DNA from: Chitinophagaceae bacterium | Lineage (GTDB): Bacteria; Bacteroidota; Bacteroidia; Chitinophagales; Chitinophagaceae | Assembly: GCA_947474815.1 (NCBI GenBank) | Contig: CANJJU010000007.1 | Span: 1 to 41,026 of the forward strand | Length of the DNA: 41,026 nt | Reading direction: 5' to 3' | In this document: in pieces, positions 7,563 to 41,026 of the stretch | How positions within the stretch are numbered: the first letter of the stretch is position 1 | Layout of the letters: each line of letters starts with the position of its first letter | Made by a program: the position numbers and the translations under genes | Notes under the pieces: model-generated | What the model saw: only the letters and a program-made list of their open reading frames with translations | What the model was told of the DNA's origin: nothing | Databases searched by the model: none

Positions 7563-7607
7563 AAAAATCCTCAGGGAATGCTGAGGATTTTGAAGTGGGC
7601 CCACTAG
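7563..7607 (-). repeat. 45-bp direct repeat, copy 2 (belongs to the intact tRNA)
   Basis: Identical by eye to 7424-7468; it covers the terminator and 3' end of the intact tRNA. Confidence 0.9.
7564..7591 (-). terminator. Terminator of the intact tRNA(CAU)
   Basis: A perfect 11-bp stem with a 6-base loop starts 5 bases after the tRNA 3' end on the minus strand and is followed by a T run (7563-7567 complement). Confidence 0.85.
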
Positions 7608-7669
7608 GATTTGAACCTAGGACCCTCTGATTATGAGTCAGATGCTCTAACCAACTGAGCTATAGGCCC
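7596..7669 (-). tRNA. tRNA with CAU anticodon (elongator Met or Ile2)
   Basis: The minus strand folds into a complete cloverleaf: acceptor GGGCCTA with TGGGCCC (one G-U pair), D arm GCTC...GAGC with GGTTA loop, anticodon stem TCTGA/TCAGA with loop CTCATAA (anticodon CAT), T arm CTAGG/CCTAG with loop TTCAAAT, discriminator A73. CCA is not encoded. A CAU anticodon can be Met or, after lysidine modification, Ile. The GGGCC acceptor start resembles tRNA-Ile, but I cannot decide. It lies 62 bases downstream of the GIY-YIG stop with no clear promoter of its own, so it may be transcribed from the promoter at 8160. Confidence 0.93.
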
Positions 7670-8074: not shown

Positions 8075-8109
8075 GGACCCTCTGTTCCGATAGCTATCGG
8101 AAGAGTCAG
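8075..8109 (-). repeat. 35-bp direct repeat, right copy
   Basis: Identical by eye to 7494-7528, including the perfect palindrome. On its outer side the tRNA 5' half continues without a break to 8137. Confidence 0.9.
8085..8102. repeat. 18-bp palindrome in the anticodon loop, copy 2
   Basis: TTCCGATAGCTATCGGAA, identical to 7504-7521 and at the same position of the tRNA (after C34). Confidence 0.92.
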
Positions 8110-8159
8110 ATGCTCTAACCAACTGAGCTATAGGCCCTGTTATATAAAATAACAGACTG

Positions 8160-35083: not shown

Positions 35084-35107
35084 TGCTCAACAGCTAATAT
35101 GATTTTC

Positions 35108-35137
35108 AGGGTCGTTCCATAAGAGCGACCTTGTTTT
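35108..35137 (+). terminator. Terminator after the PKD gene
   Basis: GGTCGTTC pairs with GAGCGACC (one G-U) around CATAA and is followed by a T-rich run. Confidence 0.75.
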
Positions 35138-35166
35138 ATTGCACTAGTTTCTAATAAAGAATCCAT

Positions 35167-35174
35167 TATTTTTC
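35167..35174 (+). promoter_or_regulatory. Decayed -7 element before the tRNA-Arg remnant
   Basis: TATTTTTC, one base from TAnnTTTG, ends 19 bases before the remnant start at 35194. The intact tRNA-Arg has TATTTTTG with a 17-base gap. It suggests the remnant was once a complete tRNA gene with its promoter. Confidence 0.4.
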
Positions 35175-35193
35175 CTGACTTGTTAAAAAAACG

Positions 35194-35238
35194 GGTCCCG
35201 TAGTTCAATGTCTGCCAAAATTTGGCAGGGATAGAATA
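35194..35238 (+). pseudogene. tRNA-Arg(CCU) remnant with palindrome in the D loop
   Basis: GGTCCCGTAGTTCAATG (35194-35210) is identical to the first 17 bases of tRNA-Arg(CCU) at 40980. An 18-19-base insert follows, whose core is a palindrome. Then GGATAGAATA (35229-35238) continues the tRNA sequence. After that the homology ends, so the anticodon, T and acceptor 3' parts are missing. Confidence 0.8.
35212..35228. repeat. 17-base palindrome in the D loop of the tRNA-Arg remnant
   Basis: CTGCCAAAATTTGGCAG is an 8-bp inverted repeat with one central base, inserted in the D loop between the two halves of tRNA homology. Its sequence differs from the palindromes of the CAU locus. Confidence 0.85.
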
Positions 35239-35280
35239 CAAATTATTTCTATAAGATTTTCCTGAGGGCTCTAAATAAAT

Positions 35281-35305
35281 ATGCCACGCTTCAACAGCGC
35301 GGCAT
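35281..35305 (-). terminator. Terminator of the 429-residue T9SS protein gene
   Basis: On the minus strand ATGCCGCGC pairs with GCGTGGCAT (one G-U) around a 7-base loop, followed by ATTTATTT. It lies 20 bases after the stop. Confidence 0.6.
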
Positions 35306-35324
35306 ACAAAGTATTTAGGAGGGA

Positions 35325-36614
35325 TTATTTTCCGTAAAGGAACTTCTTAGTAATCCTAATTGGAATTTTTTGTGAACTATTTGATGTCTCTACTTTTATT
35401 GTATAGTAGCCTGAAGAAATCTTAGGTAAGTTCAGATCAAGTCTGTTATCGCCTGTTATTAATCTTCTGTCAGGAAATGTTGCAATCTTTTTACCTTGCA
35501 GATCATAAACAGAAATGGTGGCGGTTACAGCATATCCAGCCCAGATATAGGCTTGCATTTTGCCATTTCTTCCATTTGTAGAAACGATGATAATATTTTC
35601 ATTAGCTGTTGCACTTCCTACACGCGCAACGTTAGAATAAGTAGACCTGCCATCATTATTTACCATTTTCAGGCGATAATAAACAGGCTTTGAGAATAGC
35701 TCAGCATCATTATAAATATAATTTATCTGACCAGCCTGATTGTTTCCTGTTGCAACAACTGCGCCAATCTTAGAGAAGCTGGCATAGCCAACCGAGCGTT
35801 CTACTTCATAACGGCTTAACTGGTTTTCCAATATTGTTGTCCAGTTTAATTTTACTTTATTTGTTTCTTTTGCTGCTTGGAAACGAACTAATGTTACTGG
35901 CAAAACAACAACAGATGAAAGGCTAATGTCATCAATTGCTACGGAGGGGTCGGTTCCTGAGCCATTTCCATTATTCTTCCAATGAAAAGCGATTCTTACA
36001 TTAGGGTTGTTATCAAAGGCAGCAGGAAGAGAAAGGGTATAAGTGGTCCACTGACCCTGGCTATACCCGTTGCAAGCTCCGCAGCAAACAGAAGTCAGGC
36101 AATATTGATAACCAACAGGCCATGTGGCGCCATTGTCGGTACTTAGCCTTAACTGCGCACGGTCATCAGAACAGCCTGCACTACCGTAAGCGATATAATC
36201 AAACTTTAAAGTAATGGTGCTTTTCCCAACCGTGCTGACAGTTGGGGAAACAATCAGCCTGTAAGTTGCGTTTGTAGCACCAGTTTCATTATAAGTTGCA
36301 CCAATATCACCACCCGAGCCCGGATCGGCTCCTATATGTAATGATTGATCTCCTATGCACGAGCTGCCGCAATTGGGCGGAACTAATCCTTCCTCAGCAC
36401 AACTGATGTACCAATTGTTTGGGGAACCACCTGTTGTACCACCAACATTATCAACCAAGGTCCAGCCGTTCCAAGCAGTTGCAAGACAATTAGCCGAGCA
36501 CCCATTGTTAAAATTGTCGCTCCAAATAGTTTGCGCTTTTGAAGAAACAGAGATGCAAATAAGAAAGGCAAGTGCGAGGAATGGCGTTGTAATATGCGAG
36601 TAAATACTTTTCAT
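35325..36614 (-). CDS. Secreted Cys-rich protein with T9SS-like C-terminus
   Basis: The 429-residue protein has a signal peptide (ending SSKAQ). A Cys-rich jelly-roll-like domain follows (residues ~28-240), with TIWSDNFNNGCSANC, TYRLIVSPTVST, STDNGATWPVGYQYC and VRIAFHWKNNG ... VAIDDISL, similar to MAM/choice-of-anchor modules. A fibronectin-like linker (LNWTTILENQLSRYEVERS) leads to a C-terminal T9SS-like strand domain (VYDLQGKKIATFPDR ... SSGYYTIKVE). It is exported; the function is unknown. It lies between the tRNA-Arg remnant and the prenyltransferase operon, in the possible island. Confidence 0.8.
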   Translation of the reverse strand: MKSIYSHITTPFLALAFLICISVSSKAQTIWSDNFNNGCSANCLATAWNGWTLVDNVGGTTGGSPNNWYISCAEEGLVPPNCGSSCIGDQSLHIGADPGSGGDIGATYNETGATNATYRLIVSPTVSTVGKSTITLKFDYIAYGSAGCSDDRAQLRLSTDNGATWPVGYQYCLTSVCCGACNGYSQGQWTTYTLSLPAAFDNNPNVRIAFHWKNNGNGSGTDPSVAIDDISLSSVVVLPVTLVRFQAAKETNKVKLNWTTILENQLSRYEVERSVGYASFSKIGAVVATGNNQAGQINYIYNDAELFSKPVYYRLKMVNNDGRSTYSNVARVGSATANENIIIVSTNGRNGKMQAYIWAGYAVTATISVYDLQGKKIATFPDRRLITGDNRLDLNLPKISSGYYTIKVETSNSSQKIPIRITKKFLYGK

Positions 36615-36722
36615 GAGTTAAATTTTAATAGAATTACTAAAAGTAACATACGATGCATGAAGATATGCTACAAAATAATGTACAACAAATAAATAGATAC
36701 AGATTTCTTCAAATGAAGTCCT

Positions 36723-37931
36723 CTATTTATAAAGCTTTCTTCTGCTAATTTCTATAAATAGGCTTGCTAGAATAGTAGTAACCAACAAAACAAGCATCCA
36801 CTGCGGGGGGAAACCAACCATAGGTGCATTAAAAGTTGTGAAGCCGACTAATGCAGTAGACAGGTAGATCGTTCCTGTAAGCACATTACGAAGAATGGGT
36901 ATGCTATTAAGTTGAAGAGGAGGTTCGTTTAAAATATACAGAAGCCCCCATACAAGAGCAGATGTAAAAAATGTTTTAGCCGAGATCATACAACCGATAA
37001 TGAGTATTATAAGAACAAGCGCATTTTTAATAGAATCATATTTGCCGGATTGCATTCTCTGAAGTCCTGTATATCCTGCAAAGCATATAGCCAGGAAGAC
37101 AAGTAAAGGAAACCAAAATAATGTTGTCGGAGTTAATATCCAATTACCGGCATAATTCCTTAAAGAAAGATAAACACCCATATAGAAGCACATTAGTCCT
37201 GATAATATTGCTAACCATGGGGTAGCTTTTAATATTTCAAATATCCTTTTAGGCGAATGTCGAAAGAGGGCAATAAACATAAGAAAGATATCGAGTGTGA
37301 GCAATAGCAGTAAAGTACTTTGGTCATCATGCTGGTATTGCAGGCGAAAAGTATTGACCATGTAACCAAGGATTAAAGGAACGGCACCCGACAAAAACAA
37401 TACTGTATAAATGCATATAGCCGCAATGAGTCCTGTTATAATGCTGTTCTTTTTTGTGCGCACATAATTAAATGAGGCAAGTACAAGCAATACGATCTCG
37501 ATGCGAATTCCGGGAGTTGCCCCTCTTGAGAATGTTGATCCCCCAATAGTTACGTAAGACCACAAAACATCTTTCCATGAATTAAGAGAGAGGTAATTCA
37601 TCTTGGCTCCAACGCCTTTTGTTATTAGCAGGTCAATAATAGGAGCAGTCAAAGCAATAGTGAAAAATACAATTACGAGCCTGGCTACCCGAATGATCTT
37701 TTCTCCGGAAAAGAGATGCAGCATGATAAGAAAAGAAACAACGATAAAAATGAACCAAAGTCCTATGTGCAGAATATCGTCAAGAGTAAAAAGGCGGTGA
37801 CTTGAAAAGAATTCAAGGGCAAGACGCAAAGTGAGTAAAGCGCCAAATAAAAACAAATATCTCTTGAAAGGAGTAGGATTGTTCTCTACATTGTTTACTA
37901 TTATCTCAAATATGCGCTGTATCCTTTTCAT
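36723..37931 (-). CDS. Polytopic membrane protein of unknown function, prenyltransferase operon
   Basis: The 402-residue protein has about ten predicted membrane segments (for example WFIFIVVSFLIMLHLF, IEIVLLVLASFNYV, GLIAAICIYTVLFLSG, ALVLIILIIGCMIS, WMLVLLVTTILASLF). A short soluble N-terminal helix and a basic C-terminus (EISRRKLYK) flank them. No family is recognised and no conserved acidic motif of UbiA enzymes is seen. It begins 5 bases after the CrtC-like gene and is the last gene of the operon, so it probably serves the same lipid or terpenoid pathway, perhaps as a transporter or a membrane enzyme. Confidence 0.75.
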   Translation of the reverse strand: MKRIQRIFEIIVNNVENNPTPFKRYLFLFGALLTLRLALEFFSSHRLFTLDDILHIGLWFIFIVVSFLIMLHLFSGEKIIRVARLVIVFFTIALTAPIIDLLITKGVGAKMNYLSLNSWKDVLWSYVTIGGSTFSRGATPGIRIEIVLLVLASFNYVRTKKNSIITGLIAAICIYTVLFLSGAVPLILGYMVNTFRLQYQHDDQSTLLLLLTLDIFLMFIALFRHSPKRIFEILKATPWLAILSGLMCFYMGVYLSLRNYAGNWILTPTTLFWFPLLVFLAICFAGYTGLQRMQSGKYDSIKNALVLIILIIGCMISAKTFFTSALVWGLLYILNEPPLQLNSIPILRNVLTGTIYLSTALVGFTTFNAPMVGFPPQWMLVLLVTTILASLFIEISRRKLYK

Positions 37932-37936
37932 CTCTT

Positions 37937-38935
37937 TTATTGTTTGAAAATATACATATTTCCTTTGCCTTGCTGCACGCCGGTATTCGGGTCAACCACT
38001 TCTACAGCACCCATCCAGAAAGAGCTTTTATTGTTCACCACTTCCTGATTCTGCATCCTCGGGCGTTCTAAAATATTTATATTACTCCCCGGTAAATTAA
38101 TAGAATAATATAGAGGATATGGCTTTGAACCGCCCGCCTCAATCCGAACACTTTTTGTCTGAACTTCTATTTCGCTTTTGAGCATGAAATTTCCATTCTT
38201 ATCCGAGAGTATGGCAGCATCTACTATTACAGCGCCTTTAGTGTCTGTTCTGAATAACAAGTTAAGATGATCACCGGTATTAAGTGAGATATCAAGCCAT
38301 GTCACAAAGTCTTTTTTTGCTCTCCCGAACAAAACAGTTTTGCCTGTAAAAGTACTGATAAACAATTTACCTACTGATGTTGACGTTGAACCGGTCTCTA
38401 GTGAAAGGGTTGCATTCAGAGGCTTTGCTATCCATGCATTAGGAGCCACAAGTATAGGAGAAAGTATAAAGGGCTTTTGAGTTTCATAATCTAGGGAGGC
38501 TTTAAAAGAAGAGGGGGAGATTGTTAAGCTATTTCTTTTATTAAGTACTCCTTCAAGGTTTGTGTTGTTCCTTTTCATGGTCCAACTCCAGCCGCCTGAA
38601 ACAGAATCATTGGCAGTGATTGAAACAGGGAAATGCTCTTTAAGTTGTAGTTCGGGATTGCCAGAGTTTTGGAATCCTGAATAAAAGGAAGAATCAGCTT
38701 CAGACCATGTTGTGAAGAAAAATCCCCCATACTTTTTTCCTGCAAAGAAGTCCATGCTTACCAGTGCACACAAATGAATGTCTTTGTCATTCTTCGCTTT
38801 GGAAACAGAATTGATGATCCACCATTTTGCCTCCTCCTGATGAGGAAGAAGAGGTTTTTCGGCAGGTAATGTATGACTCACTGAACAGGAGCAAAAAAAA
38901 GCAAAAAAGGGAAATATTATTATGCAGCTCTTCAT
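37937..38935 (-). CDS. CrtC/AttH-type lipocalin-like lipoprotein or secreted protein
   Basis: The 332-residue protein has a signal peptide with a possible lipobox (FCSC). It appears to be a two-lobed lipocalin of the CrtC/AttH group: EEAKWWIINSVSKAKN ... ALVSMDFFAGKKYGGFFFTTW at the start, SVSGGWSWTMKRNNTNLEGVL, and the C-terminal SFWMGAVEVVD ... GKGNMYIF, which resembles the family's YWEGAV ... G-GY end. Relatives act on isoprenoids (carotenoid 1,2-hydratase) or other secondary metabolites. It is directly adjacent to the upstream toroid gene (TAAATG). Confidence 0.65.
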   Translation of the reverse strand: MKSCIIIFPFFAFFCSCSVSHTLPAEKPLLPHQEEAKWWIINSVSKAKNDKDIHLCALVSMDFFAGKKYGGFFFTTWSEADSSFYSGFQNSGNPELQLKEHFPVSITANDSVSGGWSWTMKRNNTNLEGVLNKRNSLTISPSSFKASLDYETQKPFILSPILVAPNAWIAKPLNATLSLETGSTSTSVGKLFISTFTGKTVLFGRAKKDFVTWLDISLNTGDHLNLLFRTDTKGAVIVDAAILSDKNGNFMLKSEIEVQTKSVRIEAGGSKPYPLYYSINLPGSNINILERPRMQNQEVVNNKSSFWMGAVEVVDPNTGVQQGKGNMYIFKQ

Positions 38936-39946
38936 TTAATTCAGGTGGCTGTGAAGGTAACTAATTAAAACACTCATTGATAGTGCTGTAGCAAAAACAT
39001 ATTCTTTCTTAATATATCGATCAACAGGGATAGGAAAATAACCTCCGTCCCAACAGCCTTTCTCACTTTGCTTTGAAAGAAGAAAATCAATCCCTTTATC
39101 AATCACCTTTTTATTGTTAAAGCCTGCATTATACAATGCAGATAGCATTAGAGCTGTATGTAATTCTGGTGAGATAGTTCTTTTGATGAAAGAGTCGTTC
39201 AATGACCAGCCGCCATCTTTTTGCTGTCGAGACAAGATGTAGTTAAGGGCCTTTTCCTTCTCGGCACTTTTATTATTCAACGTCTTCATCATTGGCCATA
39301 AAGCATAGGCGGGTGAATTATAGTATTCCCATGCATGGCCCCAATCTCCATCTAGCGTTTGTTTGTCAGATAGCCATGTATAATTCTCTTTTTTATAAGG
39401 AGGTGCTACTCCTGCTTTGTTAAGCATATTCAAAACAAATGCAGTTACTGAAGGAAACTCTTTTTGTTCACTAATATCGGGATTGCCTATAGCCCATTGG
39501 CCCGTTGGCTTTTGCATTGCTGCAATGCCTTCAGCGCCTTTTCTGACATTCTCCCTTTCGCCAATTTCGAAGAGAAGCGTATAATACACTGATGTTGTTT
39601 CAAGACAAAACTCATTCCTGCACTTCTTGTTATGGCATATAAGTCCGGAAGGATTTTCGTTCTCACGCAGGAATGAAAGTGCTTTTTTTAAGGCTGGCTG
39701 GTTGGTGTCTTGCTTTATCTGATACAACGCAGTTGCAGCAAGAACTGTTTCCCATATATCGAAAAGAGCATTGCTAGTATCGCAGATGGCTCCATCGGCT
39801 CTTTGAATATTGCTGAGGAAGCTTATGCCTTTTCCCAGCGCATCTATGACCAATGCTTTTCTTTCTTTTTCCTGGGCAGAGGCAAATGTGATACAAGTCA
39901 ATAATAGTAAAGTCGGCGCAATAGTTTTTATGAATTGTCCTTTCAT
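38936..39946 (-). CDS. Secreted alpha/alpha-toroid prenyltransferase/squalene-cyclase-like protein
   Basis: The 336-residue protein has a signal peptide (ending FASAQ) and helical repeats of the terpenoid-cyclase alpha/alpha toroid: FLSNIQRADGAI, TLDGDWGHAW, NYILSRQQKDGGW and FLLSKQSEKGCWDGGYF are QW-like motifs. I see no DxDD protonation motif, so it is probably not a class II terpene cyclase in the strict sense; it may bind a prenyl lipid in the periplasm. It starts with a 1-base overlap to the UbiA gene and ends against the CrtC-like gene. Confidence 0.75.
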   Translation of the reverse strand: MKGQFIKTIAPTLLLLTCITFASAQEKERKALVIDALGKGISFLSNIQRADGAICDTSNALFDIWETVLAATALYQIKQDTNQPALKKALSFLRENENPSGLICHNKKCRNEFCLETTSVYYTLLFEIGERENVRKGAEGIAAMQKPTGQWAIGNPDISEQKEFPSVTAFVLNMLNKAGVAPPYKKENYTWLSDKQTLDGDWGHAWEYYNSPAYALWPMMKTLNNKSAEKEKALNYILSRQQKDGGWSLNDSFIKRTISPELHTALMLSALYNAGFNNKKVIDKGIDFLLSKQSEKGCWDGGYFPIPVDRYIKKEYVFATALSMSVLISYLHSHLN

Positions 39947-40872
39947 TATCCAGGCAGGTATTTGTGAAAGAATAAAATGATTTCCAGCCCGAGCAAGCCG
40001 GATATATAAACAATGAAAATGGGCTTTTCATTATAGGGTTTCCTATAAAGCAGGTAACAATGCAGAACAGCCATTAGAATAACCAATGGGTAGAACCATA
40101 TAATATTAATGAGTATGGATGCCATCAGGTAAGTACATAATGTGCAGACTGCGATAAAAGCTTTTGCTTTTCTTTCTCCAAAGAGCACGGGCAATGTGTT
40201 AACTCCTGTTTTTTTGTCTCCTTCAATATCTTTAATGTCTACGAAGTTGGCAGAAAGAGAAAGGGGCAACAAAATAAATAGAGCCCAATTCAAAGGGAAA
40301 TCTTTAAGGATTCCCCCTGTAAGGAGAAATCCACACACTGCCAGCATAAAAGAGTTCAGGCCAATGAATAGCTTAGATACAATAGGGATCTTCTTAATAC
40401 GAAAGGGTCTGCAGGAATAAATATAATAGCCTGCAGAAATTGCAATTATACCAAAGAACATTTCTTTTCGAACAAGAAATGAAAGAAATAATGAATATGC
40501 AAGACATAGTATTCCCGCCAGAAGGTAGGAGTCTTTGTTCACGGTTTCAAGCACCAATGGGCGCGAAGGATTGGTAAACTTATCTGCTTCAAGATCTTCC
40601 AAGTTGTTGGTTACAATAGCAAACACAGCAGCATAAGTAATAGCAATAATAAACAGAGGAAAGACAAACATGGTTTCTCTGCCTGCAAAGAATTCGGCTA
40701 ATCTTTCATCGTTATCTACAACAGCAATTCCGAGTAAAGCAAGAACTACATAATGGAGTATCCTGAGTGGCCGTAGGTCCCTTACTATTTCCTTTGTAAG
40801 AGAAGGGGATATAAACCTCATCAGCACAGGGAGAAAAATACTTACAGCAAGAAGCAACAGATGTGATTGCAA
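39946..40872 (-). CDS. UbiA-family prenyltransferase
   Basis: The 308-residue membrane protein has the two Asp-rich motifs of the UbiA superfamily: NNLEDLEADKFTNPSRPLV at ~89-107 and DIKDIEGDKKTGVNTLP at ~211-227, plus about nine membrane helices. The first motif is a variant (NxxEDxxAD) of NDxxDxxxD. UbiA enzymes attach a prenyl chain to an aromatic or other acceptor, and some have evolved into cyclases. The start is TTG at 40872, directly preceded by an in-frame stop; an ATG lies 17 codons later. It is the first gene of a four-gene operon with a TATTTTTG promoter. Confidence 0.88.
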   Translation of the reverse strand: MQSHLLLLAVSIFLPVLMRFISPSLTKEIVRDLRPLRILHYVVLALLGIAVVDNDERLAEFFAGRETMFVFPLFIIAITYAAVFAIVTNNLEDLEADKFTNPSRPLVLETVNKDSYLLAGILCLAYSLFLSFLVRKEMFFGIIAISAGYYIYSCRPFRIKKIPIVSKLFIGLNSFMLAVCGFLLTGGILKDFPLNWALFILLPLSLSANFVDIKDIEGDKKTGVNTLPVLFGERKAKAFIAVCTLCTYLMASILINIIWFYPLVILMAVLHCYLLYRKPYNEKPIFIVYISGLLGLEIILFFHKYLPG

Positions 40873-40906
40873 TTAATATGGGGTATTGGGAGGTTTTAAA
40901 AGTAGA

Positions 40907-40914
40907 CAAAAATA
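40907..40914 (-). promoter_or_regulatory. -7 element of the prenyltransferase operon
   Basis: TATTTTTG on the minus strand ends 34 bases before the TTG start at 40872. It is divergent from the tRNA-Arg promoter. Confidence 0.6.
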
Positions 40915-40954
40915 AGCAATCATAATTACAGTCAGTCTTTACAGACGAATCTTG

Positions 40955-40962
40955 TATTTTTG
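40955..40962 (+). promoter_or_regulatory. -7 element of tRNA-Arg
   Basis: TATTTTTG, a full match to TAnnTTTG, ends 17 bases before the tRNA start. Confidence 0.65.
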
Positions 40963-40979
40963 CACTCCTTTTTAATTTT

Positions 40980-41026
40980 GGTCCCGTAGTTCAATGGATA
41001 GAATAGAAGTTTCCTAAACTTTAGAT
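40980..41026 (+). tRNA. tRNA-Arg(CCU), 3' part cut by window end
   Basis: The first 47 bases fit: acceptor GGTCCCG, D arm GTTC/GAAT, anticodon stem GAAGT/ACTTT and loop TTCCTAA (anticodon CCT). The T arm and 3' end lie beyond the window. Its first 17 bases recur in the remnant at 35194. Confidence 0.88.

Follow-up and report, generated by a model that had tools for sequence, protein, structure and literature searches.

A palindrome-interrupted tRNA-Arg copy as the probable footprint of a candidate GIY-YIG nuclease element of tRNA genes in Bacteroidota

How does a copy of a tRNA gene come to be interrupted by a palindrome in its D loop and to break off a few bases further on? This question is raised by a tRNA-Arg(CCU) copy in a stretch of 41,026 nucleotides (the window, contig C7) from a Chitinophagaceae genome of 1.90 Mb, assembled in 123 contigs and 98% complete (G000). 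The original prediction, namely a tRNA-Arg fragment with a palindrome in the D loop, is borne out and can be made exact: nt 1-17, which span the acceptor 5′ strand, the 5′ D stem and the first half of the D loop, are followed by a 19-nt insert and then by nt 18-26 (Table 1). The palindrome proper, CTGCCAAAATTTGGCAG, occupies 35212-35228 within this insert, and 35239 is the first base unlike tRNA-Arg. As had been proposed for checking, we compared both fragments with the complete tRNA-Arg(CCT) of the same genome, located at C87:101-173, and both match it; the chance expectation of a 17-mer match in the window is about 5e-6. No 3′ remainder of the broken copy was found in the window, nor a nuclease gene near 35194. 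The insert resembles the CCTGCC class of palindromes (see below) with one C-to-T change and occurs as an insert nowhere else in the genome. A match on contig C18 with one mismatch appears to be coding sequence and is dismissed as a coincidence.

Table 1. Positions of the features at the broken tRNA-Arg copy and at the tRNA-CAU locus of the same window
Feature	Position	Strand	Remarks
Upstream region of broken tRNA-Arg	35094-35193	+	Matches C87:1-100, there leading into intact tRNA-Arg
tRNA-Arg(CCU) nt 1-17	35194-35210	+	GGTCCCGTAGTTCAATG; 17/17 identity with C87:101-117
19-nt near-palindrome insert TCTGCCAAAATTTGGCAGG	35211-35229	+	Clean, between tRNA-Arg nt 17/18, D loop
tRNA-Arg nt 18-26, GATAGAATA	35230-35238	+	End of copy
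tRNA-Arg(CCU) nt 1-47, unbroken, cut by contig end	40980-41026	+	Continues as C87:101-173
tRNA-CAU element as a whole	8137-7456	-	Order: nt 1-35, palindrome, nt 41-50, nuclease gene, tRNA, palindrome, nt 41-57, palindrome, nt 63-75, terminator copy
tRNA-CAU nt 1-35, 5′ remnant	8103-8137	-	35/35 identity with 7669-7595
Palindrome TTCCGATAGCTATCGGAA in place of tRNA-CAU nt 36-40, anticodon loop	8085-8102	-	
tRNA-CAU nt 41-50 after first TTCCGATAGCTATCGGAA	8084-8075	-	
GIY-YIG nuclease gene, 96 aa	7732-8022	-	Pfam PF01541, E=8.1e-12
Intact tRNA (CAU anticodon) inside element, with terminator	7595-7669	-	ARAGORN; Rfam RF00005, 76.4 bits
Second copy of TTCCGATAGCTATCGGAA	7504-7521	-	Then tRNA-CAU nt 41-57 at 7503-7487
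Palindrome TCCCGATAACTATCGGGA in place of tRNA-CAU nt 58-62, T loop	7469-7486	-	
tRNA-CAU nt 63-75 after TCCCGATAACTATCGGGA	7468-7456	-	Then copy of tRNA terminator

Window positions 35094-35210 and C87:1-117 share 80 identical bases, a mismatch at base 81 and resumed identity up to tRNA nt 17, after which C87 continues as the intact tRNA-Arg and C7 as the palindrome. The simplest reading of this alignment would be that the two contigs part at a branch of the assembly graph and represent the intact and the broken version of one locus, i.e., a population polymorphism; two paralogous loci are a possible alternative. The sequence upstream of the unbroken tRNA-Arg at 40980 differs from that upstream of 35194, the stretch 40980-41026 being common only to C87. 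The stretch 35240-40979, which separates the broken tRNA-Arg from the unbroken one, has five main ORFs, for which Pfam gives a Por secretion tail protein (T9SS-secreted), a lipocalin, a terpene cyclase, UbiA and one protein without a family; compared with the C87 allele, these five ORFs might have been inserted. An integrase-driven tRNA island can be ruled out for these 5.7 kb, as the five main ORFs are ordinary genes without an integrase in Pfam, and a group I intron can likewise be ruled out, given that the insert measures just 19 nt and that Rfam reports only one intact tRNA in the window.

The genome holds further palindrome-broken tRNAs. The tRNA-CAU locus of the window, whose palindromes had been noted before, is confirmed and additionally carries a GIY-YIG nuclease gene and more parts than had been described; here the nuclease gene and the tRNA lie in a segment bracketed by direct repeats, each made up of TTCCGATAGCTATCGGAA and the adjoining tRNA bases. 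The genome also has a tRNA-Val locus on C103, in which an intact tRNA-Val(TAC) is followed by a GIY-YIG gene and by a tRNA-Val copy with its anticodon arm replaced by TCCCGACAAAGTCGGGA, and a tRNA-Ala-like tandem array at the contig end C115:1-300 (L233), with a period of 76 bp and at least four units, each combining a tRNA-Ala-like 5′ half with TCCCGATGAAATCGGGA. No nuclease gene was seen at the latter array up to the contig end, and we read it as a further relic. The two best-preserved loci of the genome each combine an intact tRNA with a stand-alone GIY-YIG gene, and both of its non-UvrC GIY-YIG genes adjoin a tRNA with palindrome-broken copies. In other genomes, the Arg 17/18 breakpoint recurs beside GIY-YIG genes in tRNA-Arg(CCU) (L099) and tRNA-Arg(CCG) (L059 and L083), and in a genome of the same genus (G035) the intact tRNA-Arg(CCU) gene is preceded by two broken units with no nuclease. 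On the basis of these three nuclease-bearing loci and the sister tRNA-CAU locus, and with the nuclease-bearing part absent here, we lean towards reading the 35194 site as the degenerate footprint of a GIY-YIG element that parasitizes tRNA genes, in a copy whose nuclease gene was lost or never kept.

The 96-aa protein of the tRNA-CAU locus retains the conserved residues Y5, Y16-x-G18, R27, H31 and E65, and the corresponding GIY-YIG active-site residues (Y, Y-x-G, R, H, E) are invariant in two protein alignments. Its AlphaFold model (pLDDT 91.7) consists of a bare GIY-YIG domain and three C-terminal helices, with no separate DNA-binding domain. By sequence, the closest solved relatives are UPF0213 (1zg2, 1.4e-15) and SLX1 (5.8e-7); by structure, Foldseek ranks UPF0213 BH0048, HIGLE and SLX1 first, all nucleases that process branched DNA or are related to such enzymes, and the catalytic domain of I-TevI next, with E-values (0.01 to 0.7) that are weak, in keeping with a length of 96 residues. 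The stand-alone nucleases of complete elements are of similar size throughout (77-110 aa).

We assembled 152 stand-alone GIY-YIG loci, 72 from sixty genomes of the family and 80 from a scan of GTDB contigs; the GTDB relatives recovered with the nuclease belong to Bacteroidota except for a few records that are apparently mis-binned. A tRNA lies within 200 bp of the GIY-YIG gene at 46 of 72 family loci and 67 of 80 GTDB loci (113/152 in total), against a chance expectation of about 1%. The family set covers 18 anticodons, with one clade residing mostly at tRNA-Val(TAC); among the tRNA-containing loci of this clade, 60 of 69 have an incomplete tRNA copy with a palindrome exactly where it is broken. 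Among 30 control tRNA-Val loci picked irrespective of GIY-YIG genes, a palindrome-broken copy was found at just two, one with a GIY-YIG gene and one located where a contig ends. The nuclease, the intact tRNA and the dead copy occur in the orders tRNA-nuclease-dead copy and dead copy-nuclease-tRNA, some elements having dead copies at either end, and the whole element measures only about 350-600 bp. Arrays are common; some repeat the nuclease together with a dead copy (L117), and others (L113, L121, L135) consist only of dead copies.

These regularities bear on a rival explanation, an ordinary tandem duplication of a tRNA followed by decay, in which the palindrome would be due to chance or assembly error. 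The fragmented, MAG-like assembly and the 80 identical bases shared by C7 and C87 at a likely graph branch are what such an artefact might look like. However, genomes of isolates, and also a closed chromosome (Marivirga L158, Pedobacter, Mucilaginibacter), show the same breakpoint and anatomy, and hairpins whose stem is 6 or longer make up 63% of 193 breakpoint inserts from 90 loci versus 0.8% of shuffles, an excess of about 80-fold that refutes this explanation in general and leaves it very improbable for the window. Phage, plasmid and viral-contig copies of the element were looked for and none was found, and carriage by phages or plasmids was accordingly rejected.

The palindromes fall into classes, TCCCGA..TCGGGA, TCCGCC..GGCGGA, CCTGCC..GGCAGG and CCCGCC..GGCGGG, and it is the nuclease clade, rather than the tRNA, that the class goes with. 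When each family-set locus is compared with its closest protein neighbor located at another tRNA, the palindrome class agrees in 28 of 32 cases (permutation mean 7.7, p=0.0005), and tRNA-Met(CAU), tRNA-Arg(UCU) and tRNA-Arg(ACG) are each found with different palindromes under different nuclease clades. The clades also differ in their C-terminal motifs (KSRKxIE, LKSGxGKEF, LKTGxGR and KSWKGG/KSAAGRRFLK). By itself, the coupling could reflect co-inheritance of palindrome and nuclease without direct recognition. The TCCCGA class has fixed arms and a variable loop, and pair 7 of its hairpins alternates between C-G and T-A, being Watson-Crick in 68 of 71 cases (mean 34, maximum 49 over 5000 shuffles); hence, the symmetry of the palindrome is itself maintained.

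The original prediction had argued from unrelated tRNAs and unrelated palindromes to one recurrent mechanism and not one ancestral accident. This inference is supported, with the GIY-YIG element as the linking agent, and the palindromes of different loci are unrelated because their class follows the nuclease clade. Its further claim that the mechanism is directed at loops stands only in part: it holds for one palindrome class only, the CCTGCC-like one, whose clean insertions fall within a loop or on its margin in 8 of 9 cases (versus 36% of possible junctions), but in the commonest class, TCCCGA..TCGGGA, the anticodon arm is replaced in full (nt 28-45).

Abundance of the palindromes outside tRNAs with no preference for loops had been named as an outcome that would speak against loop-directed insertion. 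The CCTGCC-class sequence CCTGCCTGCCGGCAGGCAGG is indeed scattered away from tRNAs in 15 of the 61 genomes of the family, with two copies in the genome of the window. About 37 of the 40 CCTGCCTGCCGGCAGGCAGG regions fetched lack a tRNA fragment. In the genome of the window, exact units are located at C30:12828 and C120:1163, in GTTTAA-rich repeats away from tRNAs, and the empty version of the C30 site occurs at two other places in this genome, indicating a clean insertion. The idea that palindromes enter hairpin loops everywhere was rejected, as inverted repeats flank the dispersed copies no more often than controls (3/44 versus 4% of re-paired controls). A separate region of another genome (G056:C1:5404000-5417500; L245-L247) holds TCCCGATGCAATCGGGA repeatedly, as part of a dispersed repeat that includes no tRNA.

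Such dispersal, with mostly tRNA-free surroundings, clean insertion and empty sites in the window's own genome, is what would be expected if REP-like mobile palindromes landed in dispensable intergenic DNA, with dead tRNAs as one target among others and the nuclease either incidental or responsible only for duplicating the tRNA. We consider this unlikely, though it is the most serious competitor of the element proposed here: the palindrome class follows the GIY-YIG clade, the palindrome of the broken tRNA-Arg occurs as an insert nowhere else in the genome, and genomes with a CCTGCC-type nuclease hold more dispersed copies than the others, with modest statistical support (mean 5.0 versus 0.74; Mann-Whitney p=0.014, Fisher p=0.055). 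Moreover, the usual REP transposase, Y1_Tnp, is missing from the genome of the window, on which ground a RAYT/REP origin was rejected. No match to PF01797 (Y1, TnpA-REP) was obtained in four palindrome-bearing genomes (G000, G013, G043, G054), and only weak partial matches were obtained in G015 and G020, which have 19 and 21 copies; in 2 of the 3 genomes with most copies, Y1_Tnp is weak or absent.

A different explanation places the function in RNA, with the broken copies acting as tRNA-like hairpin RNAs that bind, guide or neutralize the GIY-YIG protein, as in type III toxin-antitoxin systems. The invariant orientation of the loci, with tRNA and nuclease on the same strand in 113 of 113, the tandem units of 71-96 bp that precede the nuclease gene or stand alone (L113, L121, L135, C115), and the replacement of arms of the tRNA fold by hairpins would all suit such RNAs. 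Against them, most 5′ tRNA copies lack the 3′ half, arrays persist where the nuclease is absent (L239, L248, C115), and G-U is no commoner than A-C among the mismatched stem pairs of real hairpins (about 3 versus about 7), which, small as these numbers are, favors DNA over RNA. We regard the RNA explanation as quite improbable, the lack of a G-U excess in the stems speaking against selection for an RNA fold on the dead copies.

The analysis establishes the association with tRNA genes, the anatomy of the element, the recurrence of its insertion site, the coupling of palindrome and clade, and the upkeep of palindrome symmetry. A complete element comprises a stand-alone nuclease of 77-110 aa, an intact host tRNA gene and at least one dead copy on one or both sides, with the short breakpoint palindrome of each dead copy belonging to the element. 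From this we infer a process at the level of DNA. The nuclease is predicted to cut its own type of tRNA gene, and repair from an element-bearing copy would bring in the nuclease, the palindrome and a duplicated tRNA stretch; since this stretch would restore one working tRNA, the essential gene would survive. The palindrome would mark the junction of element and target and might serve as the recognition or cutting site of the nuclease, in linear or cruciform form, or as protection from a second cut. Tandem arrays could arise where breakage and recombination recur, and relics like the 35194 site could remain once the nuclease is lost. Immunity through disruption or recoding of the target, as in classical homing, was not seen, because the anticodon arm of the intact tRNA is unchanged in most elements. 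The dead copies are disrupted, but at most tRNA-Val loci the anticodon arm of the intact tRNA does not differ from that of tRNAs without an element, and a recoded tRNA was rejected as a general rule of immunity. A mode of action resembling that of a homing endonuclease, except that the target is restored, is, in our estimate, somewhat favored. The fuller proposal is more tentative, and we put it forward at rather less than even confidence: a new mobile element in which a minimal SLX1-like GIY-YIG nuclease and a cognate palindrome, paired clade by clade, invade essential tRNA genes, regenerate a working tRNA and stamp a dead copy, and which in some genomes may spread its palindrome to non-tRNA sites.

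The nearest solved relatives of the nuclease, by sequence and by fold, are UPF0213/YhbQ-like proteins and SLX1. SLX1 is a structure-specific endonuclease that processes branched DNA, and to our knowledge both are housekeeping or repair proteins that have not been tied to tRNA genes or palindromes. Tyrosine-integrase islands at tRNAs also duplicate part of the tRNA gene and restore a working copy; in contrast to these, the element has no integrase, its dead copy is palindrome-interrupted and it is far shorter. The traits of free-standing GIY-YIG homing genes are found here in the catalytic domain and in a fixed-target location with a patchy distribution, as seen in the counts of tRNA-adjacent loci and of tRNA-Val controls given above. 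By analogy, the element would be most like the intronless homing of T4 SegB, a small GIY-YIG nuclease in a tRNA region that favors the inheritance of the T4 tRNA genes (PMC2988022), without being assigned to that class. Unlike SegB, it resides in bacterial chromosomes, its clades favor particular tRNA types, and it carries an intact tRNA along with clade-specific palindromes in dead copies. As in REP/REPIN-RAYT systems, a single nuclease-like gene family goes together with short, scattered palindromes (PMC8266576, PMC3733652), but the palindromes of the element start with TCCCGA, CCTGCC or TCCGCC and not with GTAG/CGTC tags, and they are few in copy number and focused on tRNA copies. Ultra-short palindromes of fungal and algal mitochondria, among them double-hairpin elements and palindromes at tRNA genes, are judged mobile in the consulted part of a discussion of them (PMC7218506); these are organellar, and that part describes no linked nuclease clade.

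We found no published description of the arrangement of nuclease, tRNA and palindrome in a literature search with most subscription journals outside its range, and the family, which occurs across Bacteroidota, is apparently undescribed. If the proposal holds, many small Bacteroidota proteins annotated only as GIY-YIG domains would be mobile elements living on essential tRNA genes, and the palindrome-broken tRNA pseudogenes beside such genes would have a cause. The coupling of clade and palindrome would amount to a recognition code that can be tested directly in proteins some 80 residues long, and it is relevant to the spread of short bacterial palindromes where no RAYT transposase is at hand.

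Two side observations concern dead tRNA-Val copies. A Bacteroidales MAG (L135) has 96-bp units in which TCCCGA-type hairpins replace part of the tRNA-Val D arm and the whole anticodon arm. In several dead tRNA-Val copies from other loci (L124, L139, L147, L149, L158), the T loop holds an insert that is not a palindrome (e.g., CTTTTCTCATGAACGAAACGAAGTGGAGTGAAT) and that possibly represents another insert family.
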